A stretch of DNA of 47,346 nucleotides from Lachnospiraceae bacterium (GTDB lineage Bacteria; Bacillota; Clostridia; Lachnospirales; Lachnospiraceae). The notes under the pieces were generated by a model that saw only the letters and a program-made list of their open reading frames with translations, did no database searches and was not told the origin of the DNA. The stretch lies in contig JAIDFQ010000032.1 in assembly GCA_029054245.1 (NCBI GenBank), positions 1 to 47,346 on the forward strand, written 5' to 3'. Below are positions 4,829 to 44,890 of this stretch, piece after piece. Each line of letters opens with the position of its first letter. Position 1 is the stretch's first letter. Made by a program: the position numbers and the translations under genes.

Positions 4829-5207
4829 GGTAACAGTTTCAACAGTTCAGCCCGCAGAGGCGGTGCAGTAGAGGCAATCGGACACCCACAGAAAAGAATT
4901 GCTGCCGCTGCATCCTCCCCTATCGTTTCAAGGCTCTGGCGAAAAATCGGCAATTTCACTTACAGAATGGGTCTATATCAGCGGAATCCAGCATGGATGC
5001 CGGATTAAGAGCCGTGCGGCACGGATGCCGCTTGGCTCTGTACGCGTCTGGTTTAAAGTATCTTGCCCCCATTCTGTTAGTGAAATCCGATTTGAAGACG
5101 AGACTTGAAACGATAGGGGAGGATGCAGCGGCAGCAATTCTTTTCTGTGGGTGTCCGATTGCCCCTACTGCACCGCCTCTGCGGGCTGAACTGTTGTAAC
5201 TGTTACC
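4829..5207. repeat. Large palindromic intergenic element, copy A
   Basis: A 379-bp near-perfect inverted repeat starting 10 bp after the exchanger stop codon. Outer arms run from GGTAACAGTT to AACTGTTACC. A looser symmetry (TTTAAGGGA / TCCCTAAA) reaches into the stop codon. The core contains CTTACAGAAT (left) and ATTCTGTTAG (right, from 5071) beside CGTTTCAAG / CTTGAAACG. Two inner hairpins sit near the centre. No open frame in it looks real. Core orientation is the same as copy B and opposite to copies C, D and E. There is no T-run. Confidence 0.9.
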
Positions 5208-5235
5208 GGCATCTCCCTAAAAATGGCAATGACTC

Positions 5236-5264
5236 TTGTCAGAAAAAATGGAATCTGCTATACT
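5236..5264 (+). promoter_or_regulatory. Promoter of PPi-phosphofructokinase gene
   Basis: TTGTCA (5236-5241), 17-base spacer, TATACT (5259-5264), 53 bp before the start codon. Confidence 0.75.
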
Positions 5265-5317
5265 TCTTATGGAATGAGCAAAAAATAAAATAAAATGAAT
5301 AAAAAGGAGAGATTGTA

Positions 5318-6547
5318 ATGAAGGGTAATATTGTTGTAGGACAGTCCGGCGGCCCCACAGCCGTAATCAACTCATCCGTAGCTGGTGTGTATGCAGCAGC
5401 CAAGAAATTGGGTGTTAAGAAAGTGTACGGTATGGTTCACGGTATCGAAGGATTTTTAGAGGACAAGATGATTGAGTTGGAAGAGTATCTTGATGATCCC
5501 ACGGGAATTGAATTGTTAAAGAGAACACCTTCCGCATTTTTAGGTTCCTGCCGTTTCAAAATGCCTAAGATTGAAGGACATGAGGATGTTTACGAAAAGG
5601 TTTTTGAAATCATGGAAAAGCATGACATTGAGTGTCTGTTCTATGCAGGCGGAAATGACTCTATGGATACCGTTAAGATGCTGTCCGATTATGCAGCAGC
5701 GCATGGGAAAACACAGAGATTCATGGGCGTACCTAAGACAATCGACAACGATCTTCCTGTTACCGATCACTGCCCCGGCTATGGATCAGCAGCAAAATAT
5801 ATTGCAGCAAGCTTAAAGGAAATCATCCGCGATAATGAATCCTTTGGCGCAAAGAAACCCACCATTTGTATCGTAGAAATCATGGGGCGTAATGCAGGAT
5901 GGCTGACTGCAGCAGCAGCGCTTGCAAAGGGAGATGACTGCACTGGTGCAGATGCAATCTACTTACCTGAAAAGGTATTTGACATGGATGCTTTCATGGA
6001 AAAAGTGAAACACCTTGCAGCAACCAAGTCTTCCGTTGTGATTGCCGTATCAGAAGGAATCCATATTGCAGATGGACGCTATGTATGCGAACTGGCAAAT
6101 GAAAATGTTGCAGTAGATGCGTTTGGACACAAGCAGATGTCAGGTACAGCTGCTTATCTTGCACAGGCAGTTGCTGCTGAAACAGGATTAAAGACCAGAG
6201 CGGTTGAGTTCTCAACCCTGCAGCGTGCCGCTACGCACCTTGCTTCCCTTACAGACATTAATGAGGCATTCCAGGTTGGTCATGACGCAGTTATGGCAGC
6301 AGAAGAAGGCAAGACAGGTATGATGATCACTTTGGATAGAAATGGTGATGACCCTTATCAGTGTGGGACAAGCGCATATGATATCCACGCAATCGCAAAT
6401 GTTGAGAGACCTGTTCCGGCAGAGTGGATCACAGAAGATGGATGCGGCTTAAATGACGGTTATGTAAAATATGCAAGACCCCTTATCATGGGTGAACTGA
6501 CTCCGCTTTTTGTAAACGGACTTCCCCGCCATCTGGTAAGAAAATAA
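5318..6547 (+). CDS. pfp: Diphosphate--fructose-6-phosphate 1-phosphotransferase
   Basis: A 409-residue cytosolic glycolytic enzyme of the phosphofructokinase fold. The phosphate-donor loop is AGGNDSMDT with Asp114 where ATP enzymes have Gly, and the next block is PKTIDND with Lys140 where ATP enzymes have Gly. This pair marks the PPi-dependent type. Asp143 is the expected base and MGRNAGW (189-195) contacts fructose 6-phosphate. It phosphorylates fructose 6-phosphate reversibly with pyrophosphate, which saves ATP in anaerobes. The gene is monocistronic: own promoter, AAAGGAGAG ribosome site, strong terminator 19 bp after the stop. The call is firm; only measured donor preference could alter it. 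Confidence 0.95.
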   Translation: MKGNIVVGQSGGPTAVINSSVAGVYAAAKKLGVKKVYGMVHGIEGFLEDKMIELEEYLDDPTGIELLKRTPSAFLGSCRFKMPKIEGHEDVYEKVFEIMEKHDIECLFYAGGNDSMDTVKMLSDYAAAHGKTQRFMGVPKTIDNDLPVTDHCPGYGSAAKYIAASLKEIIRDNESFGAKKPTICIVEIMGRNAGWLTAAAALAKGDDCTGADAIYLPEKVFDMDAFMEKVKHLAATKSSVVIAVSEGIHIADGRYVCELANENVAVDAFGHKQMSGTAAYLAQAVAAETGLKTRAVEFSTLQRAATHLASLTDINEAFQVGHDAVMAAEEGKTGMMITLDRNGDDPYQCGTSAYDIHAIANVERPVPAEWITEDGCGLNDGYVKYARPLIMGELTPLFVNGLPRHLVRK

Positions 6548-6565
6548 GCAATCAAAAGAACTGGG

Positions 6566-6594
6566 CGGCTGACCGTAATGGTCAGCCGTTTTTT
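6566..6594 (+). terminator. Intrinsic terminator after pfp
   Basis: CGGCTGACC (6566-6574), GTAAT loop, GGTCAGCCG (6580-6588) and six T (6589-6594). It ends the pfp transcript before palindromic copy B. Confidence 0.92.
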
Positions 6595-6650
6595 CTCCCT
6601 TGCGGTCTGAACGATAACTATCCGATATGTCTATCGTAACAATTTTTCCC

Positions 6651-6800
6651 TAGGGGCCACGCGGCACGGATGCCGCCGGCTCCGACCCGTACGCATGGAA
6701 ACACATAAATACATTCTGTTAGTGAAATCCGATTTTGTAGACGAGGCTTGAAACGATAGTGCGTGATGTCAGCGGCAGCGATTCCTTTCTGTGATGCGTT
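6651..6800. repeat. Palindromic intergenic element, copy B (half element)
   Basis: Only the centre and one arm survive. CGCGGCACGGATGCCG, GGCTCCGACCCG, ATTCTGTTAGTGAAATCC (from 6712) and CTTGAAACGATAG align with copy A and with the reverse complement of copy C. The outer arm resembles that of copy A (GATG, CAGCGGCAGC, TTTCTGTG). The matching left arm is missing. The right limit is approximate. It lies behind the pfp terminator, not at the stop codon. Confidence 0.8.
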
Positions 6801-6816
6801 GATAGTTGTTGAAAAT

Positions 6817-6856
6817 AAAAAAGGTAGCTGATTATCTGCTAAGATAAACCGCTACC
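6817..6856 (-). terminator. Terminator of the XRE membrane regulator gene
   Basis: Read on the minus strand, a 15-16 bp stem (GGTAGC with GCTACC at its base, 6823-6856) with a 3-base loop is followed by a T-run (A-run 6817-6822 on the plus strand), 31 bp past the stop codon. Confidence 0.85.
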
Positions 6857-6887
6857 ATAGGTAAGCAATATTAAATTTCATATATCT

Positions 6888-7865
6888 TTATACAATGCAC
6901 ATAAGTCCATACATTATCAAACATATAAATAAACTAATTATACTTGATTTCTTTGTTTTATACTTCTCATTTGCAGGATTCCATTTTTTTATATTGCTAT
7001 TTTCAAATAGCAAACCTATTGTTACACTCATTATGCCCAAAAGCAACAATCCACATATTTTCATTGCAGGCATAGTATTATTCTCAATCCCTTTTATTTC
7101 AAATACCATACCAGTTATTCCTATTCCCACACATAGCAACAGCGTAAATATTACAGTTATCGGAATACTATATCTTGCACGTTTCTTATCATCTTCTCTA
7201 CAATATATTTTGTCTATCATTTTATAATTGTTCATTACTATGCTTGCAATAAAGTTCAATAAATAGACAACAACCAGAATGCCATTAAACCATTTCATTT
7301 CCAAACTTATACTATTTATCACGCAAAACAGAAAAACATATACGGTAGAAAGGATTCCGATATGCAGGTCAATCTGTACCAGCAGTTTTTTCACTTCACA
7401 AATATTATATTCTGTCTTGTCGTCAAATCCTGCAATTCCACTAAAAGAATTATTTTTTATTGCAGTAGAAAAATAGATATGCAGGAATAATTGGATTGGA
7501 ACACATAGAATAAACATACAAATCAACATTCCAATACTAAAAGCATCTCTTACAGCACTGTTAACGATATATGCCAGTATACACAAAACAGATATGCCTA
7601 TAAAAATCCATGGCATTTTTCCTATTGATACTTCATCTTGGATTGATGAGTTTTCCTCCTTCCCATTGCCTAACAATGTATCAACATCAACTTCAAATAA
7701 TTGCGCTAACTTGATTAGATTATCAGAACTTGGTTTGGAGATATTAGCTTCCCACTTGGTCACTGCCTGACGGCTGATATTCATATATTCAGCAACTTTT
7801 TCCTGTGACATTCCTTTCTTTTTGCGGTAGTACATAAGATTTTCAGCTAATTGATTTTCATTCAT
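6888..7865 (-). CDS. XRE-family helix-turn-helix regulator with membrane domain
   Basis: A 325-residue protein. Residues 5-60 form a Cro/C1 helix-turn-helix (MSQEKVAEYMNISRQAVTKW), followed by an acidic linker and about six hydrophobic segments. Such one-protein membrane regulators are common in Firmicutes; the signal is usually unknown. Start choice: the open frame reaches a further 22 codons upstream, but a GGAGG site (7874-7878) lies 8 bases before the ATG at 7865, and the helix-turn-helix begins right after it. A promoter with direct repeats and a palindrome lies upstream, suggesting autoregulation. It is clearly more AT-rich than the core genes around it and opens the accessory patch, so it may have been acquired. 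Confidence 0.85.
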   Translation of the reverse strand: MNENQLAENLMYYRKKKGMSQEKVAEYMNISRQAVTKWEANISKPSSDNLIKLAQLFEVDVDTLLGNGKEENSSIQDEVSIGKMPWIFIGISVLCILAYIVNSAVRDAFSIGMLICMFILCVPIQLFLHIYFSTAIKNNSFSGIAGFDDKTEYNICEVKKLLVQIDLHIGILSTVYVFLFCVINSISLEMKWFNGILVVVYLLNFIASIVMNNYKMIDKIYCREDDKKRARYSIPITVIFTLLLCVGIGITGMVFEIKGIENNTMPAMKICGLLLLGIMSVTIGLLFENSNIKKWNPANEKYKTKKSSIISLFICLIMYGLMCIV

Positions 7866-7941
7866 ATTAGTAACCTCCGTTTTGATTTTGATAGCAATAA
7901 TATACCGATTTATCATGTTGCACTCTACCAACTATACGGAA

Positions 7942-7979
7942 ATTATAGGCAACTATATGGCAACTATCAGTTGCAACTG
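7942..7979 (-). promoter_or_regulatory. Promoter and putative autoregulatory operator of XRE gene
   Basis: Minus-strand -35 CTGATA (7970-7965), 17-base spacer and -10 TATAAT (7947-7942). The spacer holds two direct repeats GGCAACTAT (7948-7956 and 7959-7967, 11 bp apart, about one helical turn). The 12-bp palindrome CAGTTGCAACTG (7968-7979) overlaps the -35. This is typical geometry for repression by the adjacent regulator; binding is inferred. Confidence 0.6.
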
Positions 7980-8074
7980 CCATTATTTTTGCTATTATAC
8001 AATTTTTTCAGCTTTTCAAACTGCTCAGTAACACTATTTTATCATAAATACAGACGTACTTCCATTAAGTTTGC

Positions 8075-8215
8075 CTAAACTTTCTTTGTCTTATTTTTTG
8101 TAATCATCATCTGCCTTGCCCGTTCCCTCTGCTCTGCGCTGACTTCTCTCGGCTTGCGGTAACTGACGTATGATTTCGGAAAGGAATATGTTTGAGATAT
8201 TTCGTCCTGTTCCAT
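8075..8215 (-). pseudogene. Possible C-terminal remnant of an unrecognised gene
   Basis: A 46-codon frame reading MEQDEISQ then SYVSYRKPREVSAEQRERAR and a lysine-rich tail. The frame stays open about 25 codons further upstream. The hydrophilic, regular composition looks more like the end of a mobile-element protein than chance, but no ribosome site or family was identified. It lies in the 7866-8383 gap, which otherwise holds only the XRE promoter. It may simply be chance. Confidence 0.25.
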
Positions 8216-8383
8216 AAGGCTGTATGTATCAGGGAAGTCGGCAGCAAGACTGGACAGCAGAAAGTTGACAAGCGGAACAGAAAATAAGCGGAGGGAGGAA
8301 GAAATTTAATGAAAATTCGATAGAAATATGAGTGTGATTGTGGTATTCTGTTAGGAATACAAATTGGATTTGGGGGTATCAGC

Positions 8384-8818
8384 GTGAAAAAAATATATTG
8401 CATTATAGCACAGTTGATATTGTTGCTATGGTTTTTTTTGGATATGACAGGATTGTGTTTTGGAAATAACTGTTTAGTATCAAGGTCATATAAAGATGAT
8501 GGTATATTTTTTCTAATTTATTTAATAGTTGTGATATTATTCATTGTTAAAGAACAAATTGGTAAATGGTTTGTAATTGTATGGCTTTCAATGTGGTTTG
8601 TGATACAGTTTATCTGCCATGAATGGTACACTATTTTTAATGATGGATTTATGGGTACATTAGAAAGAAAAATTGAGTATTTTTCAGGCACAATACAGTG
8701 GTTACAAATAGATGGTAAATATATACCCGATGTATATCATACTATATTGCATATTCTCATATTATGCGCCTTAATCAGTACCATTGTATATTCCATAAAG
8801 ATTATAAAAAAGAAATAG
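8384..8818 (+). CDS. Small hypothetical membrane protein
   Basis: A 144-residue protein starting at GTG behind a GGGGGT site. About four hydrophobic segments (near residues 3-20, 35-55, 60-80 and 115-140) alternate with short hydrophilic loops. I recognise no family. It is AT-rich and sits in the accessory patch between the XRE gene and the broken nuclease gene. Its promoter is not clear and no terminator follows. A real gene is plausible because the frame is clean and the protein looks membrane-embedded. Function unknown. Confidence 0.6.
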   Translation: MKKIYCIIAQLILLLWFFLDMTGLCFGNNCLVSRSYKDDGIFFLIYLIVVILFIVKEQIGKWFVIVWLSMWFVIQFICHEWYTIFNDGFMGTLERKIEYFSGTIQWLQIDGKYIPDVYHTILHILILCALISTIVYSIKIIKKK

Positions 8819-8921
8819 ATATTCCCGTTTTGTCTAAACATCAATTACCACAATCACAACAGAATAAGAAACACAGCGTTAGAGCATATAGAAAACCGAG
8901 AAAACTTTACGGAAAATTCAA

Positions 8922-8950
8922 TTTTCAAAAAGCATTGTCGGATGTATAAT
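8922..8950 (+). promoter_or_regulatory. Putative promoter of the Rpn-type pseudogene
   Basis: TTTTCA (8922-8927), 17-base spacer and perfect TATAAT (8945-8950), 25 bp before the TTG start. The -35 is weak. Confidence 0.5.
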
Positions 8951-8975
8951 AAAAGCAGTAGAAGAAGGTGATATT

Positions 8976-9520
8976 TTGAATACAGCGGAGCAGGCACATC
9001 AACAGGACTTAGAACGTCTGAAATCACTCCGATATATGGACGATGATTTTATGACTATCTGTCTTGCAGATAATTTTGAGGGTGTGGAACTAATACTACG
9101 GATTATTTTAGGACGAGAAGATATAAAAATCAAGTCAGTTAGGACACAAGAACCGTTGAAGAATTTGCAAGGGCGTTCGGCTGTTTTGGATGTTCATGCG
9201 ATTGACAGCACCGATAAGGAATTTGATGTAGAAATTCAAAGGTCAGACGCAGGAGCAGGCGCAAAAAGGGCAAGGCATAACAGCAGTCTGTTGGACGCAC
9301 ACATATTAAAGTCGGTGATGATACAGAGGATATTCCCGACAGTTATGTTATTTTCATTACGGAAAACGATGTAATGAAAGGAAATCAACCGATATATCCA
9401 GTAGAGAGATATATCACTATCGGGGAAAATAAGGTATTGTTTGGCGACGGTTCGCATATTCTATATGTTAATGGGAAATATAGGGGCAACGATGAAATTG
9501 GAAAGCTAATGCACGATTAA
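8976..9520 (+). pseudogene. Frameshifted Rpn/PD-(D/E)XK nuclease-family transposase
   Basis: The first frame (TTG start, AAGGTG ribosome site) encodes RYMDDDFMTICLADN, an EDIKIKSVRTQ strand, AVLDVHAIDSTDKEFDVEIQ with the nuclease Asp and Glu-x-Gln, then NSSLLDAHILK. The family normally continues as VGDDTEDIPDSYVIFITEND. That sequence is present from about 9312 but one frame away, and runs through GDGSHILYVNGKYRGND to a stop at 9518-9520. Loss of one A in the AAA run near 9310 would explain it. The C-terminal third of the family is also missing after GKLMHD. Intact members (recombination-promoting nucleases) are linked to mobile DNA. Frameshift plus truncation point to decay, unless the first is a sequencing error. 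Confidence 0.8.
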
Positions 9521-9549
9521 TAGGGACTATACTATATCTTGTGTATTAG

Positions 9550-9608
9550 GGCGGCTTTCAAACTTGAAATTTCAGGCGGCTCCCAAGATTGAGACTGGTG
9601 GCTCTCAA
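9550..9608 (+). repeat. Three imperfect direct repeats at the broken left side of the IS element
   Basis: GGCGGCTTTCAA (9550-9561), GGCGGCTCCCAA (9575-9586) and GGTGGCTCTCAA (9597-9608), spaced 25 and 22 bp. They lie exactly where the IS3 element loses orfA. Origin unknown. Confidence 0.6.
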
Positions 9609-10465
9609 GAGCCGCTTACTATAAATGGCTGCATCGGGAAATTCCGAAGTGTGAGCTGGAAAATATACAGCTTGCAGAACTTATCAAAGAATATGATGAA
9701 CGATTTAGTCACATTTTAGGTTATCGGAGAATGACATCATGGATTAATCATTTTAACCATACGGATTATAGCCGTAAGCGAGTCCACAGGATTATGAAAA
9801 GGTTAGGCATTCATGCCTTGATTAGAAAAAAGAAGAAAAAATATACATTGTCTACGCCTGAGATTACCGCTGAGAACAAACTAAAACGTGATTTTAAGGC
9901 AAGTAAGCCGAATGAAAAGTGGGTAACGGACGTGACTGAATTCAAGGTGCCGCAAGAGAATAAGAAACTGTATTTGAGTGCAATTCTTGATTTGTATGAC
10001 CGATATCCGGTTGCATATGTTATAAGTACCAGAAATAACAACCGGCTTGTGTTCGAAACCTTTGATAAGGCGGTAGCCGCAAATCAAAATGCAAAACCGC
10101 TATTTCATAGTGACAGAGGTTTTCAATATACAAGCAGAGTATTTCAAAGAAAGCTAAAAGAACATGAAATGGAACAATCCATGTCACGAGTTGGTCATTG
10201 CATTGATAACGGACCAGCAGAGGGATTCTGGGGTATCATAAAATCAGAAATGTATCAGATATACAAAATCACGGACGAAGCATCACTTAGGTTTGCAATA
10301 AGTGATTACATTCGATTTTACAGCGAAGAAAGACCACAAGACAGATACTGCTGTAAAACACCAGCGGAAGTACGAAGAGAAGCTTTTTCTACGGACACTC
10401 CGGCAGAGTATTCGATTCCTATAAACAAACGAATTCAAAAGTACAAAGAGAAATGGTGTGCATAG
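9593..10465 (+). pseudogene. IS3-family transposase OrfB, N-terminally truncated
   Basis: The frame is open from 9593, just after an in-frame TGA, and reads SRAAYYKWLHRE like the N-terminal part of OrfB; the first ATG is only at 9731. The catalytic core is complete: WVTDVTEF (Asp), FHSDRGFQY (Asp) and DNGPAEGFWGIIKSEMY (Glu), then the closing ERPQDRY...KTPAEVRREAF. IS3 transposases are normally made as an OrfA-OrfB frameshift fusion. Here OrfA and the frameshift window are missing, so a functional transposase is unlikely, though the OrfB core itself is undamaged, suggesting recent truncation. A 10-bp hairpin follows the stop. Confidence 0.85.
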
Positions 10466-10468
10466 AAA

Positions 10469-10495
10469 AACGACCACACATTACATGTGGTCGTT
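10469..10495. terminator. Hairpin after the transposase gene
   Basis: AACGACCACA (10469-10478) and TGTGGTCGTT (10486-10495) form a perfect 10-bp stem with a 7-base loop, 4 bp past the stop. The T-run is poor (TTCATT). It may terminate transcription or block read-through in the IS. Confidence 0.6.
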
Positions 10496-10675
10496 CATTA
10501 GTACTTCATTTTAGATATTTAACCTGTCTACTTGACAGGGGGCATATCACTGTCATGGCCTTTTAAGGATTGAGGAAGTCCCTTTCTTATTTGTATTTGT
10601 TTGTCACCCCTCCGCACTATCCAACATCTGTGGGCAAAACTGCTACGTCTATTATTTGTTTCTGTTTGTTCTCCA

Positions 10676-10704
10676 TTGACTTCAACATCAAAATATATTA
10701 TTCT
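10676..10704 (+). promoter_or_regulatory. Promoter of the CheX-like/CheY operon
   Basis: TTGACT (10676-10681), 17-base spacer, TATTCT (10699-10704). A strong GGAAGGAGG ribosome site (10722-10730) follows, 6 bases before the ATG. Confidence 0.65.
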
Positions 10705-10736
10705 AATATTATGGCAGGAGGGGAAGGAGGTACAAT

Positions 10737-11633: not shown

Positions 11634-11635
11634 AG

Positions 11636-11998: not shown

Positions 11999-12036
11999 GG
12001 AATATATAATGTCTGGTACTTGCAGGCGTTTGCAGA

Positions 12037-12084
12037 TAAGCTGTCGCTATGACGATGAATAAGTCATAACGACAGCTTATTTTT
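12037..12084 (+). terminator. Terminator of the CheX/CheY operon
   Basis: ATAAGCTGTCG...ATGAC pairs with GTCAT...CGACAGCTTAT, followed by TTTTT. The stem is about 17 bp with a small internal bulge. Confidence 0.85.
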
Positions 12085-12107
12085 ATAACAAATTTCCCAT
12101 AAATTTC

Positions 12108-12136
12108 TTGCATTCTTTTAAGGGATTAGGTATGAT
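12108..12136 (+). promoter_or_regulatory. Promoter of the LacI-family regulator
   Basis: TTGCAT (12108-12113), 17-base spacer, TATGAT (12131-12136). Confidence 0.7.
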
Positions 12137-17511: not shown

Positions 17512-18153
17512 ATGAATCAGAGTGCATTTCACAAATTATCTTACGGCGTTTATGTCGTAAGCACATGGGATAACGGAAGACCCACAGGATGTACGGCAAA
17601 CAGCGCCATGCAGATAACATCTACTCCTGCGACGATTGCTGTCAGCATCAATCACAACAATTATACAAACAAATGCATCAATGAAACGGGTAAATTTGCT
17701 ATTTCCATTCTTGCGGAGGATTCCGACCCTTCTATCATTGGAACGTTTGGTTTCAAGACAGGAAAGGAAGCAGACAAATTTTCAGAAGTGAAGTACAGCG
17801 TGGAAGATCATATGCCGATAGTATCTGACAGCTGTGCATATATTGTATGTGATGTTATTGATAAAATGGAAACTGCAACCCATACGGTCTTTCTGGGCGA
17901 AGTAAAGGGAGCTGAGGTATTGGGAAATAGGGATGCTATGACCTATGCATATTATCACAAGGTAATTAAAGGCAAAAGTCCTAAGAATGCACCTACCTAT
18001 ATCCCGGAAGAAGATGAGAAGAAGCCGGAGGGCGAAAGGGGACGCAAATTTAAATGTGAGGTTTGCGGCTATATCTATGAGGGCGAAGAATTGCCGGTTG
18101 ACTATAAATGTCCTGTCTGCGGCATGGGGGCAGACAAATTCGTAGAAATATAG
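17512..18153 (+). CDS. Flavin reductase-rubredoxin fusion (high-molecular-weight rubredoxin, Hrb type)
   Basis: A 213-residue fusion. Residues 1-150 are a flavin reductase/flavoredoxin FMN-binding domain ([32 protein letters not shown]). After a charged linker, residues 179-213 form a short rubredoxin with CEVCG (Cys182, Cys185) and CPVCG (Cys200, Cys203) holding one iron. In Moorella, Hrb passes electrons from NADH to the flavodiiron protein FprA for O2 or NO reduction; the same role is likely here. The rubredoxin part is shorter than free rubredoxins, as in other Hrb proteins. The ribosome site is AAGGAG. A Fur-family-like box overlaps the promoter. Palindromic copy C starts 15 bp after the stop. 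Confidence 0.9.
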
Positions 18154-18168
18154 GATTGATTATACTGA

Positions 18169-18561
18169 TTACAGTCAAGACCCAATGTCAGTTAGTTATG
18201 GGGTGCGCCGGCAGTACAGCGGTGTCGTGTGGACAGAGAGCAGACTGCGCACAGGCGACAGCGTATAGTATCGTTTCTAGTCTCATCTCAAAATCGGATT
18301 TCACAAGCAGAATGTATATAGATGTTTCAAGGCGGCCGGGTCGGAGCCGGCGGCATCCGTGCCGCGAGGCTCCTAAAATCGCCATCCATGGCGATTTTTC
18401 CCTGGGGATTTAGCATTCTGCAAGTGAAATTGCCGATTTTTCGCAGAGACTAGAAACGATACTATATGCCGTCGCCTGTACGCAGTCTGCTCTCTGTCCG
18501 CACGGCGCCGCTGTACTGCCGGCGCACCCCATAACTAACTGACATTGGGTCTTGACTGTAA
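18169..18561. repeat. Large palindromic intergenic element, copy C
   Basis: A 393-bp inverted repeat from TTACAGTCAAGACCC to GGGTCTTGACTGTAA, starting 15 bp after the Hrb stop. The outer arms (about 110 bp each) differ from those of copies A, D and E but pair with each other almost throughout. The core is shared: AAATCGGATTTCAC (18291-18304) and GTGAAATTGCCGAT. Inner hairpins are GGAGCC/GGCTCC around CGGCATCCGTGCCG, and AAAATCGCCAT-CC-ATGGCGATTTT. There is no T-run and no credible open frame. Confidence 0.92.
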
Positions 18562-18615
18562 AACATGTTGCAAAAAATGTATATTTTGATATTCTTAAAG
18601 CAGGATAAAGTATGT

Positions 18616-18626
18616 TATACTATACT
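18616..18626 (+). promoter_or_regulatory. Possible -10 region for the S1-domain operon
   Basis: Two overlapping TATACT words (18616-18621 and 18621-18626). A convincing -35 at the right distance is lacking: TTGATA at 18586 is too far. The transcript would carry the tandem array in its leader. Confidence 0.35.
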
Positions 18627-18650
18627 CGTATGTGCATATGAAATATGATA

Positions 18651-18719
18651 CATACGAAGTATGATACATACGAAGTATGGTTCATACGGAGTATGGTTCA
18701 TACGAAGTATGGTTCATAC
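18651..18719 (+). repeat. 16-bp tandem array of CATACGAAGTATG palindromes
   Basis: Four units start at 18651, 18667, 18683 and 18699, and a half unit at 18715, all exactly 16 bp apart. Each is CATAC-GAA-GTATG (unit 3 has GGA in the centre), a 5-bp-arm inverted repeat. Spacers are ATA in the first half and GTT in the second. It lies between the possible -10 and the S1-domain start, so it is either an operator array or a leader able to form a chain of small RNA hairpins. Confidence 0.88.
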
Positions 18720-18763
18720 GATTAAAAACAGTCATATGGTAAAATGGCAGATGGGAGCAGGTT

Positions 18764-19669
18764 ATGGAAGAGACAATGAAGGACTATGAAAAGGAGCTGG
18801 AAGCATCTTTCCGCAAGATTCAAGAAGGGGATGTGATTCAGGGCACAGTAATCGATGTGAATGAGGAGGAAGTGACCTTAGACCTTAAGTACTATACCCA
18901 GGGGATCATCAAGGCAGCTGATATGAGCAGTGATCCCGGATTTTCAATTCTGACGGATGTACAGGCAGGGGATGTGGTGGAAGCTACTGTTATAAAGATG
19001 GACGACGGACAGGGCAATATTCTTCTTTCCAAAAAAGAAGCAAATGAAGTGCTCGCATGGGATGTGCTTGAGGGATACAAGGAAGAAAAGAAAAATCTTG
19101 CTGTCAAGGTAAGCGAGGTGGTAAATGCAGGTGTTGTTGCTTATCTGGAAGGCATCAGAGGATTTATTCCGGCGTCCCAGCTTGATCTTTCTTACGTGGA
19201 GGATTTAGAAGCATATAAAGGCAGGAACTTGACTGTGAGGGTCATAACAGTCGATCAGGAGAAGGAAAAACTGGTACTCTCAGCAAAGGAGATTTTAAAG
19301 GAACAGCAGAAGGAAGAACATGACCATAAGGTGGCGATGATTGTACCCGGAACAATTCTGGAAGGTACTGTTGAAAGCCTGCAGCCTTACGGCGCGTTTG
19401 TAGATTTGAAAGATGGTTTAAGCGGTCTGGTACACATTTCCCAGATTAGTCAGAAGAGAATCAAAAAGCCTTCTGAAGTGCTGAAGGTGGGAGATAAGGT
19501 CAAGGTGAAGGTTTTAAATACCAATGACGGAAAAATTTCTCTTAGTATGAAGGCAGCAGAAGAGCAGCAGCCAGAGGAAGTAGAAAGCTTTGATACAAAG
19601 CAGTTTGACTCGGGTGAGAGTGTGGGGACAAACCTTGGGGACTTGTTTGCAAAGCTGGGGCTGAAGTAG
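18764..19669 (+). CDS. S1-domain RNA-binding protein (RpsA-like, three S1 domains)
   Basis: A 301-residue cytosolic protein with three S1/OB folds at about residues 20-90, 107-175 and 192-265. The third is the most typical (GTVESLQPYGAFVDLKDGLS, GLVHISQIS). The C-terminal tail is acidic. Short S1 proteins of this kind in Firmicutes bind mRNA or the 30S subunit; the exact role is open. The first ATG (18764) follows a GGGAGCAGG site and is preferred over Met at 18776. It leads an apparent operon with a HAD phosphatase (21 bp gap) and a CPBP protease (24 bp gap). The leader carries the 16-bp tandem array, hinting at unusual control, possibly by the protein itself. Confidence 0.87.
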   Translation: MEETMKDYEKELEASFRKIQEGDVIQGTVIDVNEEEVTLDLKYYTQGIIKAADMSSDPGFSILTDVQAGDVVEATVIKMDDGQGNILLSKKEANEVLAWDVLEGYKEEKKNLAVKVSEVVNAGVVAYLEGIRGFIPASQLDLSYVEDLEAYKGRNLTVRVITVDQEKEKLVLSAKEILKEQQKEEHDHKVAMIVPGTILEGTVESLQPYGAFVDLKDGLSGLVHISQISQKRIKKPSEVLKVGDKVKVKVLNTNDGKISLSMKAAEEQQPEEVESFDTKQFDSGESVGTNLGDLFAKLGLK

Positions 19670-37965: not shown

Positions 37966-37972
37966 AATTTAA

Positions 37973-40513
37973 ATGACGAGAATCGTTGTATCCACCCTGT
38001 TGATTGCAGGGATTTTACTCCTAAGGGCAGTTTTCAGAAAAAAGATCAGTCCGTTAATCCTGTATCCAATCTGGCTTCTGGCAGCCTTCCGTCTTTTGAT
38101 GCCGGGGATGCTCTTTTACAGTCCTGTCAGTGTAATGAACACAGGGATTTGGAGCACGGGAAGCCGCATGCTTGTAGAAGAAGAAAATCGGCAGAATCGG
38201 GAGTATAAAATGTGGCAGTATCAAGCATATTATGACAATTTGGCAGCAGCAGATCTAAAAGCTGTTGAAGCGGCACGTCTAAAAGAGCGGGGGGAGGATG
38301 TCAGATTAGACATTACCACAGAAGGAGAGGATTCGGCAAGAATAACAGAGGATAATAAAGGCATACAGGAAGAAAACAAAAAAGTATGGACAACAGGAAT
38401 AAAAGAAGAAACTGGCATAGAAGCGCGGGAAAATGTGGATGTTGCGACAGAATCGATAGAGCTGAAGCGGCAGATGCCAGGAACGCTTTTGGGGAAGATG
38501 AGATTGACTGCACGCTTTGTATGGATTGCGGGAATGCTGGTGACTGCAGTAGCCTTTCTATGGCAAAATTTTTCATTTTATCATTATTTGCGGTCTGAGA
38601 GGAAGAAATTTGAAGAACCGCTGGCGGGTAAAAGCAGACTTCCTGTTTTTTTGACAGGGGACAGACTTTCCTCGCCCTGTTTGTTTGGACTTTTGCCAGC
38701 AGTTTATATCCCAGAGACATGTGTGGATGCGAAGAATGAAGAACAGCTTGCGTTTATTTTAGAGCATGAGCATATGCATTATAGGCATGGAGATCACATA
38801 TGGGCGCTTGTCAGAATCTTGTGCCTTGTCATAAATTGGTATAATCCGCTGGTATGGATTGCCGCAAAATTGTCTCTGCGGGACGGAGAGCTTGCCTGTG
38901 ATGCTGGATGCATCCGCAGGTTTGGTGAGGAAAAACGCTGTGCCTATGGGGAAGCTCTTCTTGCAATGATTATGCAGTCGAAAGAAAAGGAGCGGGTATT
39001 AAAGACGGCTACCATGATGACGGGAGGAAAGGCATTTATGAAAAGACGAATGGAAGAGATTGCACAGAAAAGAAAAACCAGTGTAACAGCGTTGTTTATT
39101 CTGTTTATTTCACTTTTCTTTATGATTGGATGCACATATACCGGAGCAAGAAGTGGGGAAGAAAGCGTTCCCGAGGACGATTCGACAACTGCAGAAACAA
39201 ATCCTATATGGGAAGGAGAAAATGATGGGGCAGAACCGGAGACGGCAGAAAAAGTTTCTTTTACCGGAGAGGTGGTGGCAGTGAAAGGAACAGGGGAAGG
39301 ACTGAATGGAAATCTGCAGGGAGCGGTGATTCTTCTGCTGCCTGGTCCTGATAAGGAGCATACAGATGAAAGATATGCAGTATTGCTTTCCGATGATTTA
39401 TATCTGCTGAATCTTGAGGGTGAGGGATGTACGCTTGAAAAAATATTGGAAGAATATACGGAGCAGGAAATTCTTGCGGTCCTGAATCAGAATCTGGCGC
39501 TGGATCTTGAAGAAATAGAGGTATGGGAATATAAGGAATTGATAGAAAAAGTGGAGGAAATCGGAGGAATCACAGTAGATGTGAAGGAGGAAGAAATCCA
39601 GCATATAAACAATTACCAGCTTATGATGACAGGTAAGGGTGAGCTTATGGAAAATCAGGTGACAGACAGCGGAGAACAGACTTTAAATGGAATACAGACA
39701 GCCGCCTACCTGCAGGTCCGATATTGGCCGGGAGGTTATTTCGGCAAGTTGGATAGATGGAATCAGGTAATCGGTACCCTGCTTCAAAAAAAGGGGCAGG
39801 AAATCATAGATTGTGACGCATTTATTTTGGAGGGATTGAGGCAGTCTGTTTATCTGGAAGGCAATGAACTAGGAGATGCCCTGTTGTGTCTGCAATGGGA
39901 AGAGGAACTTGCGCGTTTGCATGAACTGTATTATCCAGATAAAGAATATGTATCTCCTGCTTTTGTAAAGGAAACGGACCAGGCGATGAAAAACCAGGCA
40001 GCAAAAGTCATTGAAAAGGCAAGAACCAAAGCAGGATTGACAGAGTGGCTTTTTGCTCAACATTTTGGATCAAGTCCTTATATAATCTCACTTATTTCAA
40101 ACACATCTATGGATGCAGAAACACAAGACGCCTGGGGAACGGTAAAGGTATTCATATCGGGCAGGGAACTAGTGTTGGATGAAGAAGGTGGAAGAGCGGT
40201 TTTTTTGATAAACCTTGTGCTTGAGGACAGCGGCGTTTTGCGCCTGCCGGAGCAGACGGATGAAGGCAGAGCATCCGTGGAGCGGTTTCTTTATCTCAAA
40301 AAGGGGATTGACGGCTGGTATGTGGATGGTCTTTTGCACAACGACCTCCCCTCCGCACAGTGGTGGGACGGTGCACAGATACAGTGGGAAATATATGATT
40401 TTGGATTCAGCGATGAAGATGCAGTGGGAATCGTGACAACATCCCAGGAGGAATATGATTCCTTTGTGAAAAAAGCACAGGAAGCAGCCCAAAATAAAGA
40501 GCAAATGCGGTAG
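37973..40513 (+). CDS. M56 (BlaR1-family) sensor peptidase with LCP-like extracellular domain
   Basis: An 846-residue membrane protein. The N-terminal part has membrane segments near residues 5-22, 28-50 and 180-195, and a long charged stretch between about 70 and 160. The M56 zinc protease site is HEHMH (265-269), with a later DGELACD that supplies the third ligand. A further membrane segment (about 365-385) leads outside. The outer part, instead of a penicillin-binding domain, resembles LytR-CpsA-Psr: LAVLNQNLAL, EKVEEIGGITVDV, then GEQTLNGIQTAAYLQVRYW and FGKLDRWNQVIG. The last 170 residues are unrecognised. It likely senses a wall polymer intermediate and cleaves BlaI. One LCP arginine appears to be lysine, so the domain may bind rather than catalyse. 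Confidence 0.85.
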   Translation: MTRIVVSTLLIAGILLLRAVFRKKISPLILYPIWLLAAFRLLMPGMLFYSPVSVMNTGIWSTGSRMLVEEENRQNREYKMWQYQAYYDNLAAADLKAVEAARLKERGEDVRLDITTEGEDSARITEDNKGIQEENKKVWTTGIKEETGIEARENVDVATESIELKRQMPGTLLGKMRLTARFVWIAGMLVTAVAFLWQNFSFYHYLRSERKKFEEPLAGKSRLPVFLTGDRLSSPCLFGLLPAVYIPETCVDAKNEEQLAFILEHEHMHYRHGDHIWALVRILCLVINWYNPLVWIAAKLSLRDGELACDAGCIRRFGEEKRCAYGEALLAMIMQSKEKERVLKTATMMTGGKAFMKRRMEEIAQKRKTSVTALFILFISLFFMIGCTYTGARSGEESVPEDDSTTAETNPIWEGENDGAEPETAEKVSFTGEVVAVKGTGEGLNGNLQGAVILLLPGPDKEHTDERYAVLLSDDLYLLNLEGEGCTLEKILEEYTEQEILAVLNQNLALDLEEIEVWEYKELIEKVEEIGGITVDVKEEEIQHINNYQLMMTGKGELMENQVTDSGEQTLNGIQTAAYLQVRYWPGGYFGKLDRWNQVIGTLLQKKGQEIIDCDAFILEGLRQSVYLEGNELGDALLCLQWEEELARLHELYYPDKEYVSPAFVKETDQAMKNQAAKVIEKARTKAGLTEWLFAQHFGSSPYIISLISNTSMDAETQDAWGTVKVFISGRELVLDEEGGRAVFLINLVLEDSGVLRLPEQTDEGRASVERFLYLKKGIDGWYVDGLLHNDLPSAQWWDGAQIQWEIYDFGFSDEDAVGIVTTSQEEYDSFVKKAQEAAQNKEQMR

Positions 40514-40518
40514 CATCG

Positions 40519-40771
40519 CAGCTCAGCCTGCAAAGGCGGCACAGCAGAGGCGGCAGGACTCCCGAAGGTAAGAACCGCTGCAGCTGACCGCACATAGGTA
40601 TCGGAAAGTCTCGTCTGCAAATCGGATTCCCCTGATAAAGATCAATTCTGTAAGTGAAATTGCCGATTTTTCGCCAGAGACTTTTTCGATATCTATGTGC
40701 GGTCAACTGCAGCGGTTCTTACCTTCGGGAGTCCTGCCGCCTCTGCTGCGCCGCCCTTGCGGGCTGAGCTG
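40519..40771. repeat. Large palindromic intergenic element, copy D (internally deleted)
   Basis: A 253-bp inverted repeat beginning 5 bp after the M56 stop codon. Outer arms (CAGCTCAGCC to GGCTGAGCTG) resemble copy E. Compared with E it lacks about 98 bp between two CGGATT words (44641 and 44739 in E), which are fused here at 40623. The loss removes the two inner hairpins and one strand of the core stem. It keeps CAATTCTGTAAGTGAAATTG and the outer stem. Confidence 0.9.
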
Positions 40772-40806
40772 TTGCCAAAATAAAAAAGGAAATATTAATT
40801 TTTTAC

Positions 40807-40834
40807 TAAGTTTTTTTCCTTGGTATGCCGATAT
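40807..40834 (+). promoter_or_regulatory. Sigma-D (sigma-28) flagellar promoter
   Basis: TAAG (40807-40810), 16 bases, then GCCGATAT (40827-40834), an exact match to the Bacillus sigma-D -10. It directs the flagellin-type gene, 68 bp upstream of its start. Confidence 0.85.
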
Positions 40835-40901
40835 AAGAAATGTATTATAATTTTCTTTAGACGATGCTGCAAAATGATTGAAAAAACTGGAGGGCAAAGG
40901 A

Positions 40902-42758
40902 ATGCTATCTATTAGGAATAATATGCCTGCATGGAACGCGGGGAGACAGTTTGGTATCAATAATCGCAACAATGTAAAGACGATGGAGAAACTTTCCTCC
41001 GGTTATCGAATCAATCGTGGGGCAGATGATGCAGCAGGACTATCTATTTCAGAGAAGATGCGCAGGCAGATCCGGGGGTTGACTCAGGCGACGGCGAATG
41101 CGCAGGATGGTATATCTTTGGTGCAGTCGGCGGAGGGTGCATTGCAGGAAGTCCATGAGATGCTGCACCGTATCAATGAGCTTGCAATTAAGGCGGCAAA
41201 CGGGACTTTGTCGGATGATGACCGCGCTCTTGTGGACGATGAGATTCAGGAAATCAAGGCACAGATTGATGCCTCTGCGCATCATACCGTATTTAATGAG
41301 CGGAAGCTTTTCCCGGATGATGGGCTTTCCCCCAGATCGGGCGCTGTCATGAAAAGTTATAAATATGAGTTGATTTGTAATCTACAGGACGGAACCATAG
41401 CAGTGGAATCTGCGCAGGATGCCGGTGTTGTAGGGCACGCCAGCGTGGATGTGACCAGCGGCAGCGTACTAGCGGACAAAATTGCCAATGAGTTTGTTCC
41501 GAACGCGGTCAGGCAGATCTTTGATGCATTTCCGGCGTTGGAGCAGGCAACAGGAACTACGCCGATCAAGCTGGCTTTGAATGTTGCTTTTATAGATGGT
41601 CCTAATAATACACTGGCATATGCCCAGTATTCATACGGCGGGAGCGGAAGACCGGTATCTATGCTGATTAAAGTGGACTCTGCCGACTTTAATGATGCAG
41701 ATGCAGAAGGCACCGGTGCGAAGGCGGAGGTGTTGGAATCCACCATAGCCCATGAACTTATGCATACAGTCATGCAGTATAATCTGACGGATGGTATGAG
41801 CGGCAGAACGGGTGAAAAATACCCTACATGGTTCGTGGAAGGAACGGCGCAGCTTGCGGGAGGCGGTTTTACCACTGGCTGGAACGATACCTTACTTTAT
41901 TACGCAAAGCTGCTTCAAAGCGAGCAGGACGATAGTCAAGACAGCCATATAGCAGATTATCTGAAAAGGTTTACCATGAATGGAAGACCTTACGGGCATG
42001 GGTATCTGGGAGCAGCATACATTGGTTATCTTGCAAATGGAGGCGGGGATGTGACAGGCGACAACATTGCAAGTGGAATGAACAAGGTATTTACAGACCT
42101 TTTGGCAGGGAAGAGTCTTGCGGATGCGATTAAAGGACAAACCGGAAAATCTGAATCTGAAATTGCGAGAATGTTCAGCAGCGGGGATAAAGATTTGGTG
42201 GAATTTGTGAGAAAACTTGCCTATGCATCCAAAGATGGCGCAGGATCTGTAATAACCAATGATCTTTCTGAAGGCGGAACCAGTATTCTGGGCGCAACAG
42301 CGCCAGAACAGCTATTTGCTATTGACCCTTCTAAGATAGCGGTGGATTTAAGTGGGGGAGCGAAGTTAGGTATTTTGGTGGGAGCAGATGCATTTGAGGA
42401 TCAGTTTATCTACATTAACCTTTATCAGATGGACGCAGAGGCGCTTGGAATTGCGGAAACAAATGTGAAAACAATAGAAGATGCCGGGGATGCAGTAAAT
42501 GCGGTAAAGAGTGCGATTACCTATGTGAGCAACGTCAGGAGTCAATACGGCGCCATTCAGAACCGATTAGAGCATACTATGAAGAATTTGAACAACATCG
42601 TTGAGAATACGACTGCGGCAGAATCCCGTATCAGAGATACCGATATGGCAGAAGAAATGGTACGTTTTTCCAATTATCAGATTCTGCTCCAGGCTGGACA
42701 GTCTATGCTGGCACAGGCAAATCATCAGCCAGACATGTTGCTTAGTCTTCTGCAATAA
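40902..42758 (+). CDS. Flagellinolysin: flagellin with zinc-metallopeptidase domain
   Basis: A 618-residue secreted flagellar filament protein. The N-terminal D0/D1 domain (1-145) includes KLSSGYRINRGADDAAGLSI and NAQDGISLVQSAEGAL. The C-terminal D1/D0 (about 515-618) includes RSQYGAIQNRLEHTM and MLAQANHQPDMLLSLLQ. The hypervariable centre is replaced by a protease: HELMH (284-288) and downstream Glu313 in TWFVEGTAQ form a gluzincin-type zinc site. This matches flagellinolysin, described in Clostridium haemolyticum, whose filaments degrade proteins. Start choice: the frame opens at a TTG 24 bases earlier, but GGAGG (40889-40893) lies 8 bases before ATG 40902, where the flagellin motif starts. 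It has its own sigma-D promoter and no other flagellar gene beside it. Confidence 0.93.
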   Translation: MLSIRNNMPAWNAGRQFGINNRNNVKTMEKLSSGYRINRGADDAAGLSISEKMRRQIRGLTQATANAQDGISLVQSAEGALQEVHEMLHRINELAIKAANGTLSDDDRALVDDEIQEIKAQIDASAHHTVFNERKLFPDDGLSPRSGAVMKSYKYELICNLQDGTIAVESAQDAGVVGHASVDVTSGSVLADKIANEFVPNAVRQIFDAFPALEQATGTTPIKLALNVAFIDGPNNTLAYAQYSYGGSGRPVSMLIKVDSADFNDADAEGTGAKAEVLESTIAHELMHTVMQYNLTDGMSGRTGEKYPTWFVEGTAQLAGGGFTTGWNDTLLYYAKLLQSEQDDSQDSHIADYLKRFTMNGRPYGHGYLGAAYIGYLANGGGDVTGDNIASGMNKVFTDLLAGKSLADAIKGQTGKSESEIARMFSSGDKDLVEFVRKLAYASKDGAGSVITNDLSEGGTSILGATAPEQLFAIDPSKIAVDLSGGAKLGILVGADAFEDQFIYINLYQMDAEALGIAETNVKTIEDAGDAVNAVKSAITYVSNVRSQYGAIQNRLEHTMKNLNNIVENTTAAESRIRDTDMAEEMVRFSNYQILLQAGQSMLAQANHQPDMLLSLLQ

Positions 42759-42796
42759 GCAGCAGTTGGCGGTATTATAGAAAGGAGCATGATAAG

Positions 42797-43174
42797 GTGG
42801 GGGAATTAAAGAAAATCACCTGCAGGTCATGTGGGATAGAGTGGGAATGCAGAACCGGGTGCGGTATGATGCATGGAAGGCTTGAATGGGTTGCGGATTT
42901 ATTTCCGGAGGATCTGAAAAAGAAAATAAAAGATTACGTGGGGGGAAGGATATTTCTTCCCTTTACATTTTCTTATGAGTTATCTTATTGCAAGGAATGC
43001 CAGAGGATAGAGAGTGTTCCGGTCTTAAGGCTCTATGAGGATAGCAAGGAGTATGTAGGACCTTGCGGGCAGTGCGGACAAAAGACAGAATTGATAGAAG
43101 AGACAGGAAAGACGCAATGTCCGGTGTGCCGCTTGGCGTTTCTTGAGATAGAAGACATTGGTCAGTGGGATTGA
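42797..43174 (+). CDS. Zinc-ribbon protein of unknown function
   Basis: A 125-residue cytosolic protein starting at GTG (MGELKKITC) behind AAAGGAG; the nearby ATG is out of frame. It holds several cysteine pairs: CRSC, CKEC, CGQC and CPVC, with two more cysteines in ECRTGC, enough for two zinc ribbons. The first and last pairs resemble rubredoxin knuckles. No catalytic motif is seen. It lies 38 bp after the flagellinolysin gene and 23 bp before rarA, so it may be read with either. Function unknown. Confidence 0.75.
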   Translation: MGELKKITCRSCGIEWECRTGCGMMHGRLEWVADLFPEDLKKKIKDYVGGRIFLPFTFSYELSYCKECQRIESVPVLRLYEDSKEYVGPCGQCGQKTELIEETGKTQCPVCRLAFLEIEDIGQWD

Positions 43175-43197
43175 AAGCTTTTGGAAGGAATCGGTGT

Positions 43198-44520
43198 ATG
43201 GAACAGTTATCACTTTTTACACAGGAAATGAACCTAAGTGCGCCTTTGGCGAGCCGGCTTCGTCCCCAGATTCTTGATGACTATATTGGTCAGGAGCATC
43301 TGGTGGGCAAAGGAAAGGTGCTGCGCCAGATGCTGGAAAAGGATATGATTTCATCCATGATATTCTGGGGACCTCCGGGCGTGGGAAAAACCACGCTGGC
43401 GCGAATTATTGCACATACGACACGGGCGTCATTTATTGATTTCAGCGCTGTCACAAGCGGCATCAAGGAAATCAAGGAAGTGATGAAGCAGGCGGAAAGC
43501 GACCGCATGATGGGAATTAAGACGATTGTGTTCGTGGACGAGATTCATCGCTTCAATAAGGCGCAGCAGGATGCTTTCCTTCCCTATGTGGAAAAGGGAA
43601 GCATTATTTTAATTGGGGCTACCACGGAGAATCCTTCTTTTGAGATCAATTCCGCTCTTTTATCAAGATGTAAAGTTTTTGTGCTGCATGCGTTGACCAA
43701 GCTGGACATGCTAAAGCTTCTTCATAACGCGCTGAGCGATAAGCGCGGGCTCGGAAATAGCAGGATTAATATAGAAGAAAGATTGCTTAAAGCAATTGCC
43801 ATTTTTGCTGACGGAGATGCCAGAACTGCCCTTAATACGCTGGATATGGCAGTATTGAACGGAAGGATAGAGCAGGATGGCTCTATTACGGTGCAGGAAG
43901 AAATGCTAGAGCAGTGCACCGGCAAAAAGATGCTGTTGTATGACAAATCTGGGGAGGAACACTATAATCTGATTTCCGCACTGCACAAGTCAATGCGAAA
44001 CAGTGACCCGGATGCCGCCATTTATTGGCTGGCAAGGATGTTAGAAGCAGGGGAAGATCCTCTTTATGTGGCAAGACGTCTGGTACGGTTTGCCAGTGAA
44101 GATATAGGGATGGCGGATTCCCAGGCACTGCAGGTAGCAGTAGCCGCCTATCAGGCGTGCCATTTCAATGGGATGCCCGAATGTAATGTGAATCTGACCC
44201 ACGCGGTGGTCTACCTATCCATGGCGCCGAAATCAAATGCGCTGTATCTGGGATATGGAAGGGCAAAAAAAGATGCGGAAAAAATGCTCACCGAACCGGT
44301 ACCGCTTCAGATCAGAAACGGTGTGACCAGTCTGATGCAGGAGCTCTGCTATGGGGAAGGGTACCAGTATGCGCATGATACTGAGGAAAAATTAACTGAT
44401 ATGGAGTGCCTGCCAGAGTCCCTTAAAGGCAGGGAGTACTATATCCCTACCAGTCAGGGGAAAGAGGCAGAAATCAAAGAACGACTTCAAAAAATCAAAG
44501 AATTTAAGAACTCTCCTTAA
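43198..44520 (+). CDS. rarA: Replication-associated recombination protein RarA (MgsA)
   Basis: A 440-residue AAA+ ATPase acting at stalled replication forks, related to clamp loaders. Residues 3-7 are QLSLF, a match to the beta-clamp binding motif. Walker A is GPPGVGKTT, Walker B FVDEIHRF, sensor 1 GATTENPSFEI, and the arginine region SALLSRC. The C-terminal half carries the tetramerisation part (ALHKSMRNSDPDAAIYWLARM, EDIGMADSQAL). Start choice: the frame is open 11 codons earlier, but GGAAGGAA precedes ATG 43198 and the clamp motif starts there. Copy E of the palindromic element starts 8 bp after the stop. Confidence 0.95.
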   Translation: MEQLSLFTQEMNLSAPLASRLRPQILDDYIGQEHLVGKGKVLRQMLEKDMISSMIFWGPPGVGKTTLARIIAHTTRASFIDFSAVTSGIKEIKEVMKQAESDRMMGIKTIVFVDEIHRFNKAQQDAFLPYVEKGSIILIGATTENPSFEINSALLSRCKVFVLHALTKLDMLKLLHNALSDKRGLGNSRINIEERLLKAIAIFADGDARTALNTLDMAVLNGRIEQDGSITVQEEMLEQCTGKKMLLYDKSGEEHYNLISALHKSMRNSDPDAAIYWLARMLEAGEDPLYVARRLVRFASEDIGMADSQALQVAVAAYQACHFNGMPECNVNLTHAVVYLSMAPKSNALYLGYGRAKKDAEKMLTEPVPLQIRNGVTSLMQELCYGEGYQYAHDTEEKLTDMECLPESLKGREYYIPTSQGKEAEIKERLQKIKEFKNSP

Positions 44521-44528
44521 AGAGACGT

Positions 44529-44890
44529 AACAGTTCAGCCCGCAAGGGCGCCGCAGCAGAGGCGGCAGGACATCCGAAGGCAAGACCCGACCCGCTAAGC
44601 TGACCGCACATAGGTATCGTTTCAAGTCTCGTCTGCAAATCGGATTTCACTAACAGAATTGGGCATAGGTATCTCAAGGCGGACGGGGCGCAGCCCAGCG
44701 GCATCCGTGCCGCACGGCTGCTAATCCGGCATCCATGCCGGATTCCCCTGATAAAGACCAATTCTGTAAGTGAAATTGCCGATTCTTCGCCAGAGACTTG
44801 AAACGATATCTATGTGCGGTCAGCTTAGCGGGTCGGGTCTTGCCTTCGGATGTCCTGCCGCCTCTGCTGCTGCAAAGAGACGGGACTGTT
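44529..44890. repeat. Large palindromic intergenic element, copy E
   Basis: A 362-bp inverted repeat beginning 8 bp after the rarA stop. The arms pair from AACAGT (44529) to ACTGTT (44890), but the outermost right arm has diverged (AAGAGACGGG) and is followed directly by the convergent MATE gene. The core holds AAATCGGATTTCACTAACAG (from 44637) and ATTCTGTAAGTGAAATTGCC. Inner hairpins are GCAGCC/GGCTGC around GCGGCATCCGTGCCGC, and AATCCGGCAT-CC-ATGCCGGATT. It is the only visible candidate terminator between rarA and the MATE gene, yet lacks T-runs. Confidence 0.9.

Follow-up and report, generated by a model that had tools for sequence, protein, structure and literature searches.

What kind of element accounts for five large palindromic intervals lying between the genes of a single Lachnospiraceae contig? 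The window analysed here comprises positions 1 to 47,346 of that contig, JAIDFQ010000032.1 (GenBank assembly GCA_029054245.1, genome G000 in the following; loci in this and related genomes carry L numbers), for which the initial annotation had offered three options, namely a structured RNA, a non-autonomous mobile element, or a DNA site for a protein. We consider it rather probable that each copy represents a palindromic DNA element, non-autonomous and dispersed in Lachnospiraceae, in which a conserved core of about 165 nt sits on two long complementary arms. Among the three options, the mobile element is the best supported one because orthologous sites in related genomes are empty, whereas the structured RNA finds no clear support in the wobble pairs.

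The core is a member of the Rfam family RF01731 (TwoAYGGAY), whose covariance model comprises 168 positions and has a gathering threshold of 43 bits. Three of the five window copies match above that threshold with scores of 80.4 to 84.3 bits, both CAYGGAUG hairpins and the basal stem fitting, whereas the Rfam model ends where the long arms of the element start. The earlier statement that no named element has this build was therefore wrong for the core, and a match to an already described RNA family is exactly what the initial annotation had named as grounds for giving it up. In the complete window genome, RF01731 has 45 matches (44 over the cut-off), so that the five-copy family is not a product of chance and the core does, as had been anticipated, recur elsewhere in the same genome. 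The 44 aligned copies of this genome fall into two sequence subfamilies, A (n = 11), which scores highest against RF01731 in the genome, and B (n = 33), to which window copies 1, 3, and 5 belong; the loops and internal loops are conserved inside each of them. The unequal strands reported for the core (an extra CA/TG, and a TCTGCAAAT strand facing TTTTCGCCAGA) are readily seen and are kept by most of the 33 subfamily B copies, while the 11 subfamily A copies have other unequal strands and a first loop of AGGA followed by any base.

In the table of a 2010 screen, TwoAYGGAY was graded as probably RNA and probably not cis-regulatory (PMC2864571); Rfam classes RF01731 as Cis-reg. A further paper describes the external stem as poorly conserved and proposes CsrA binding in its passage on the family (PMC4333381). 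The long arms, mobility, and inversion are not mentioned in the TwoAYGGAY passages of the 2010 discovery paper, the Rfam 15 paper, and PMC4333381, and no literature was found on covariation in connection with palindromes and transposition, on palindromic repeats of Lachnospiraceae, or on long inverted repeats in connection with miniature inverted-repeat transposable elements (MITEs), in a search that left subscription papers mostly outside.

The five intervals are indeed related to one another, four of them having long inverted arms and the fifth being half a core (Table 1). The palindromic build claimed for all five holds for those four, since the interval at 6651-6800 lacks a left arm and the inverted-repeat search of the window returned no inverted pair there. 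Likewise, the shared core is complete in copies 1, 3, and 5, which have both AYGGAY hairpins, while by eye a single hairpin is left at 6651-6800 and none at 40519-40771. The outer ends of element 5 look decayed by eye. The intervals as first delimited add up to 1537 of 47,346 bases (3.2%), in agreement with the earlier figure of more than 3% of the window.

Table 1. Copies of the TwoAYGGAY element in the window (positions counted from its first nucleotide)
Copy	Interval	Strand	Arms	Core and state
Element 1	4815..5221	+	4815-4936 / 5100-5221 (122 nt, 93% complementary)	TwoAYGGAY core 4937-5100, 80.4 bits; complete
Copy 2	6651..6800	+	without left arm	truncated: core 3' half and right-hand sequence; best match 6651-6743, 92% to another copy's core
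Element 3	18169..18561	-	18169-18297 / 18433-18561 (129 nt, 92% complementary)	core 18284-18446, 84.3 bits; complete
Copy 4	40519..40771	-	40519-40607 / 40683-40771 (89 nt, 93% complementary)	core-deleted: both AYGGAY hairpins lost, without RF01731 match
Element 5	44529..44890	-	44550-44630 / 44793-44873 (81 nt, 98% complementary)	core 44630-44792, 81.5 bits; complete

Arms of at least 40 nt were found in 106 of 113 collected copies, and these arms have a median length of 92.5 nt, reach at most 196 nt, and are 95% complementary on average. Their sequences turn over from copy to copy: 16 of the 44 left arms in the window genome, including those of all 11 subfamily A copies, match no other copy's at an E value of 0.001, and the other 28 match at least one copy over 17-108 nt with 69-100% identity, several only where they adjoin the core. 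Arm complementarity persists despite this turnover, and even the core-deleted copy 4 has retained it. The arms are also richer in G+C (58%) than the core (49%) and the 100 nt upstream (38%; 98 copies). In the same 98 copies the 5' arm is purine-rich (59%), although the arm sequences differ between copies.

The element is dispersed in many copies. Of the 37 genomes in the genus, 17 gave matches, the copy number ranging from 1 to 53 (at most 55 candidates scored per genome). A survey of the order with stricter filters and at most seven candidates scored per genome gave at least 34 of 392 sampled genomes with a match, which exceeds the cut-off in 32; the same family accounts for 30 of these 34, and 20 of 174 genera are represented. 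The named relatives that have the element are Lachnospiraceae, including Lachnospiraceae bacterium IMSAGC_005 and three metagenome-assembled genomes (MAGs), and presumably come from animal guts. Carriage by plasmids or phages was rejected, as the core of copy 5 (subfamily B; subfamily A was not queried) had no match in either collection.

Related species differ in the presence and absence of individual copies. The stretch 4820-5216 with element 1 is missing at the orthologous site of G007, G035, and G009, which read straight through (CCTTTGTCTAAAAATGG in G007), and the insert in the window amounts to 397 bp with TTAA before and CTAA behind it. At the site of copy 4, G007 has no element and G035 a different full one, and at that of copy 5, G035 has none. 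Outside the window, L040 is absent from the orthologous sites of G007, G009, and G011, L017 from those of G035 and G007, and one copy of G011 from those of G009, G000, and G035. When the syntenic block was searched by blastn with G000 cores, five copies (two partial) were counted in G000, four in G035, two in G011, one in G007, none in G009 and G005, and one 42-nt match in G028, with the proviso that some genomes are only partly covered and that divergent copies could be missed. At the G011 orthologue of window positions 4819-5217 (L078), a 21-bp hairpin between two CTAA stands in place of the full element and is perhaps a deletion footprint.

Copies that occupy the same site in two species were compared by aligning all four arms, a column being counted as mirrored when it had changed in both arms; the one-arm count includes mismatches common to both species. 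Out of 42 same-site rows (31 in the same orientation, 11 inverted), 17 were chosen by eye (12 and 5, respectively), and 25 were left out because the site was repeated via a third genome, the match lay far from the element edge, or a copy was paired with the other's neighbour. Mirrored changes occur at shared sites, the ratio of mirrored to one-arm columns being 16:4 in L003/L143, 11:0 in L005/L129 (A), 23:5 in L005/L129 (B), and 8:1 in L045/L046. In L005/L129 (B), the changes include a 42-43-nt indel that both arms of one genome have and neither arm of the other. All 17 pairs together yield 204:86, or 114:74 once L229/L143, a repeated site, and two pairs with barely alignable arms (L033/L109 and L012/L117) are excluded. 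Copies at different sites gave 831 mirrored and 301 one-arm columns in 52 alignable pairs. Mirrored multi-base changes at a shared site are what template switching between the arms would be expected to leave.

Terminal inverted repeats combined with dispersal and empty sites are equally the properties of a MITE-like element, whose arms would serve as terminal inverted repeats for a DDE or HUH transposase and would be made identical only when a new copy forms. Such an element is possible, yet we are inclined to doubt it. YTAA is present on both sides of element 1, and in some same-site pairs of high similarity every change affects one arm only, both of which fit. The mirrored changes between species at one and the same site do not, nor does the apparent lack of a general duplication beside the arms, none being obvious by eye at L017, L040, or the 45 copy ends inspected. 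Moreover, the Y1 (HUH) transposase has no match in the 45-copy window genome (DDE transposases were not searched for), and, apart from orthologous neighbours, the only recurrent family among the flanking genes is that of ABC transporters, which form the largest cluster as judged by eye from motifs.

Besides the arms, the core itself changes, as it is found inverted in place in the draft assemblies. At L203 (G009) and L222 (G011), the cores are inverted relative to each other and 97.0% identical, the arms are 94-98% identical, and the flanks agree within 1 bp on both sides; at L217/L239, inverted cores of 97.6% identity lie in flanks that agree within 8 bp. The next best cores to these inverted pairs reach 83% and 90%, among those listed from 168 copies. 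L043/L127 is also inverted, its two cores sharing 89% identity across 142 nt, whereas the inverted copies of L205/L187 and L012/L117 may be independent insertions because their cores are only 77% identical. Spacer inversion in place, the second change that template switching would produce, is thus seen in L203/L222 and L217/L239. That these inversions are assembly errors seems very unlikely to us. G009 and G011 are MAGs, and an 80-nt inverted repeat is able to mislead an assembler; the two elements measure only about 326-337 nt, however, and ordinary reads should therefore span core, arm, and flank. Two sites of G000/G035 are inverted as well, although their cores are less alike (89% and 77%).

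The position of the copies relative to genes is not random. None of the 44 copies lies inside an open frame of at least 170 codons (shorter frames across the core were disregarded). An arm ends within 60 nt of 66 out of 97 neighbouring gene 3' ends and of 19 out of 118 gene 5' ends, the median distances being 30 and 120 nt, respectively. Beside gene 3' ends, the copies are mostly antisense (37 antisense and 15 sense, n = 52), and this bias remains in unpaired copies (30 vs 14, p = 0.023). Position and polarity of this kind would suit a selection on pairing, in which the arms stay complementary through compensatory mutations, without copying from arm to arm, because the cell maintains either a hairpin in RNA at the 3' ends of genes or a cruciform in DNA that some protein requires. 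We nevertheless regard this as unlikely, since the mirrored 42-43-nt indel and the clustered multi-base mirrored changes are hard to reach by single mutations, a clear wobble bias is missing, and copy 4 has kept 93% complementarity after the loss of its core.

In an RNA stem, G·U pairs are tolerated on the transcribed strand and A·C pairs are not. Accordingly, 13 tRNAs from the fetched loci, used as a control, gave a G·U:A·C ratio of 11:0, a small sample whose acceptor register was chosen by Watson-Crick pairs. In the arms, read on the Rfam strand, A·C pairs outnumber G·T pairs by 135 to 98 (p = 0.018), and there are 61 of each when 52 copies are read in the direction of a single adjacent gene. 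The core folded on the Rfam strand has G·U:A·C ratios of 25:20 in subfamily A (33 sequences) and 16:23 in subfamily B (77 sequences). The tolerance of G·U over A·C that marks a functional RNA was thus not clearly seen in either the arms or the core; the wobble counts are not independent because the copies share ancestry. At least two Watson-Crick types occur in 25 of 43 predicted core pairs of subfamily A and in 11 of 37 of subfamily B.

Signals for transcription were also sought. No excess of promoter scores was found 5' of the element (mean 8.60 vs 8.48, p = 0.40, 110 copies), and a promoter of its own on that side was therefore rejected. An intrinsic terminator was set aside, as no T run stands behind the hairpins of the window copies by eye (no terminator scan was made). 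Among the 37 genus genomes, 33 encode CsrA, namely 15 of the 17 that have the element and 18 of the 20 that lack it; it was not found in G005 (34 copies, 89% complete) and G035 (53 copies, 86% complete). As its presence shows no clear association with the element, a CsrA sponge was rejected. For TwoAYGGAY as a functional structured RNA, such as a CsrA-sequestering small RNA with the arms as its stem, speak the Rfam family with its covariation, two hairpin loops bearing GGA, the conserved loops and internal loops of each subfamily, and the CsrA binding proposed in the part of PMC4333381 mentioned above. Given the wobble pairs, the missing 5'-side promoter excess, the distribution of CsrA, and the fact that copies take both orientations to the adjacent gene and flip between species, we hold this to be improbable.

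If the element is mobile, some trans-acting enzyme would recognise the core or the ends and spread it, and insertion beside stop codons may be tolerated because no gene is disrupted. The candidates considered as mobiliser were rejected. Y1 transposases are present in 21 of 37 genus genomes, unrelated to copy number by inspection, and were ruled out by their absence from the window genome; a Y1 enzyme in a many-copy genome, as an IS200/IS605-derived or REP-type element would suggest, was thus not found there. PDDEXK_2 (Rpn-like) proteins occur in 36 of 37 genomes and do not follow copy number by inspection (G015, for example, has 17 PDDEXK_2 and one element), and a YhgA-like match in a protein near one G035/G007 copy stays below the Pfam cut-off (17.9 vs 21 bits). 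PDDEXK_2 was rejected, having no tie to copy number, despite a fragment between two inverted copies in G379. There (L174:1560-2980), what lies between the two copies, which match at 97% over 283 bp, is the C-terminal portion of a PD-(D/E)XK transposase-like gene. A composite transposon in the genus was dismissed since the spacers between paired copies differ except at orthologous sites. Survival of the long palindromes through absence of SbcCD was likewise rejected, since 36 of 37 genomes have an SbcD match, which exceeds the cut-off in 34, the window genome included (SbcC was not searched).

Close copies have a preferred arrangement. In the 168-copy set, where some pairs represent the same site in two species, 23 of 24 pairs less than 1 kb apart are divergent and one is tandem, pairs at 1-3 kb are divergent in five and tandem in four cases, and no convergent pair was found among close copies; in other genera, all eight pairs within about 1.3 kb are divergent, among the matches listed. 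Such divergent pairing sits oddly with a core able to flip. The genes around close divergent pairs are mixed. In G360, a repeat of about 630 bp without long frames matches over at least 360 nt at 14 places, and of the 12 that were fetched (L172, L173, L191-L200), five have TwoAYGGAY on both sides (four divergent, one tandem), two on one side, and five on none; the two bracketing copies at L173 form a 296-bp inverted repeat with 99% complementarity. Next to element 3, short tandem repeats of a ATACGAAGTATGGTTC-like unit lie at about 18640-18721, directly upstream of the gene at 18764, by eye. In G009, the intergenic region orthologous to window positions 18153-18721 contains further sequences that look palindromic and have CAACGTCG.CGCGCTC stretches; they probably belong to a different repeat family at the same place.

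Taken as a mobile palindrome, the element would keep its arms complementary by copying from arm to arm at the DNA level, through template switching at the hairpin during replication, and the same switching would also flip the core. Template switching appears to be the likeliest process behind the mirrored changes, the mirrored indels, and the spacer inversion, and the covariation may then stem largely from the replication of DNA and not from selection on an RNA. ERIC, BIME/REP, and other intergenic palindromic repeats resemble the element in being multi-copy, intergenic, palindromic, non-coding, and often located beside gene 3' ends. The present element differs from them in its copy-specific long arms around a conserved asymmetric core and in that the window genome lacks a Y1 (RAYT-type) enzyme. 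Closer to the proposed process is the quasi-palindrome template switching of yeast, where, in the parts of PMC8604942 consulted, switching between inverted repeats homogenises the arms and inverts the spacers; those arms measure 10-16 bp and the spacers 2-5 bp (its Table 2), whereas in the dispersed family described here the arms are about 90 nt long and the spacer about 165 nt. Multi-base compensatory changes by template switching have also been proposed, according to the portion of PMC8794818 consulted, for RNA genes, whereas here a dispersed palindrome family is concerned.

Several observations weigh against this interpretation. The closest same-site pairs, those of G007/G035, show no mirrored substitution, with mirrored to one-arm counts of 0:14 and 0:7, and the counts are 0:6 in L203/L222, 1:7 in L218/L232, and 0:1 in the second element of L045/L046. 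As close pairs have mostly one-arm changes, mirroring must be slow relative to point mutation or take place elsewhere, for example at transposition; it seems that a mutation first arises in one arm and is copied to the other, or lost, only afterwards. The conserved unequal strands of the core have escaped homogenisation, and the core is therefore under some selection. The A·C excess of the arms equals a G·U excess on the opposite strand and is thus a weak hint of a transcript running opposite to the Rfam strand; when the core is folded on this opposite strand, its G·U:A·C ratios are 19:21 in subfamily A and 26:16 in subfamily B. Homologous recombination between the arms could also give the inversion, though the inversion alone. 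Finally, a general target-site duplication was not evident (45 copy ends, by eye), no mobiliser such as a transposase turned up (DDE transposases were outside the search), and the assemblies are drafts, those of G009 and G011 metagenome-derived.

As a tentative proposal, which we put forward as conceivable rather than probable, a catalogued "structured RNA" family would in fact be a mobile, invertible DNA palindrome whose covariation is written by template switching at replication, with the core acting as a folded DNA site for a putative mobilising protein that also imposes the divergent arrangement. Covariation is a main computational argument for RNA function. Since mirrored changes occur at single loci without a clear wobble signature, covariation alone may not separate an RNA stem from a self-repairing DNA palindrome, and, if the proposal is true, a control for wobble pairs or strand would have to accompany the covariation test of any family that lies within a palindrome. 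These Lachnospiraceae, each of whose genomes can contain marked copies by the dozen, would also offer a natural system in which template switching, palindrome stability in SbcD-bearing cells, and core inversion are measurable.

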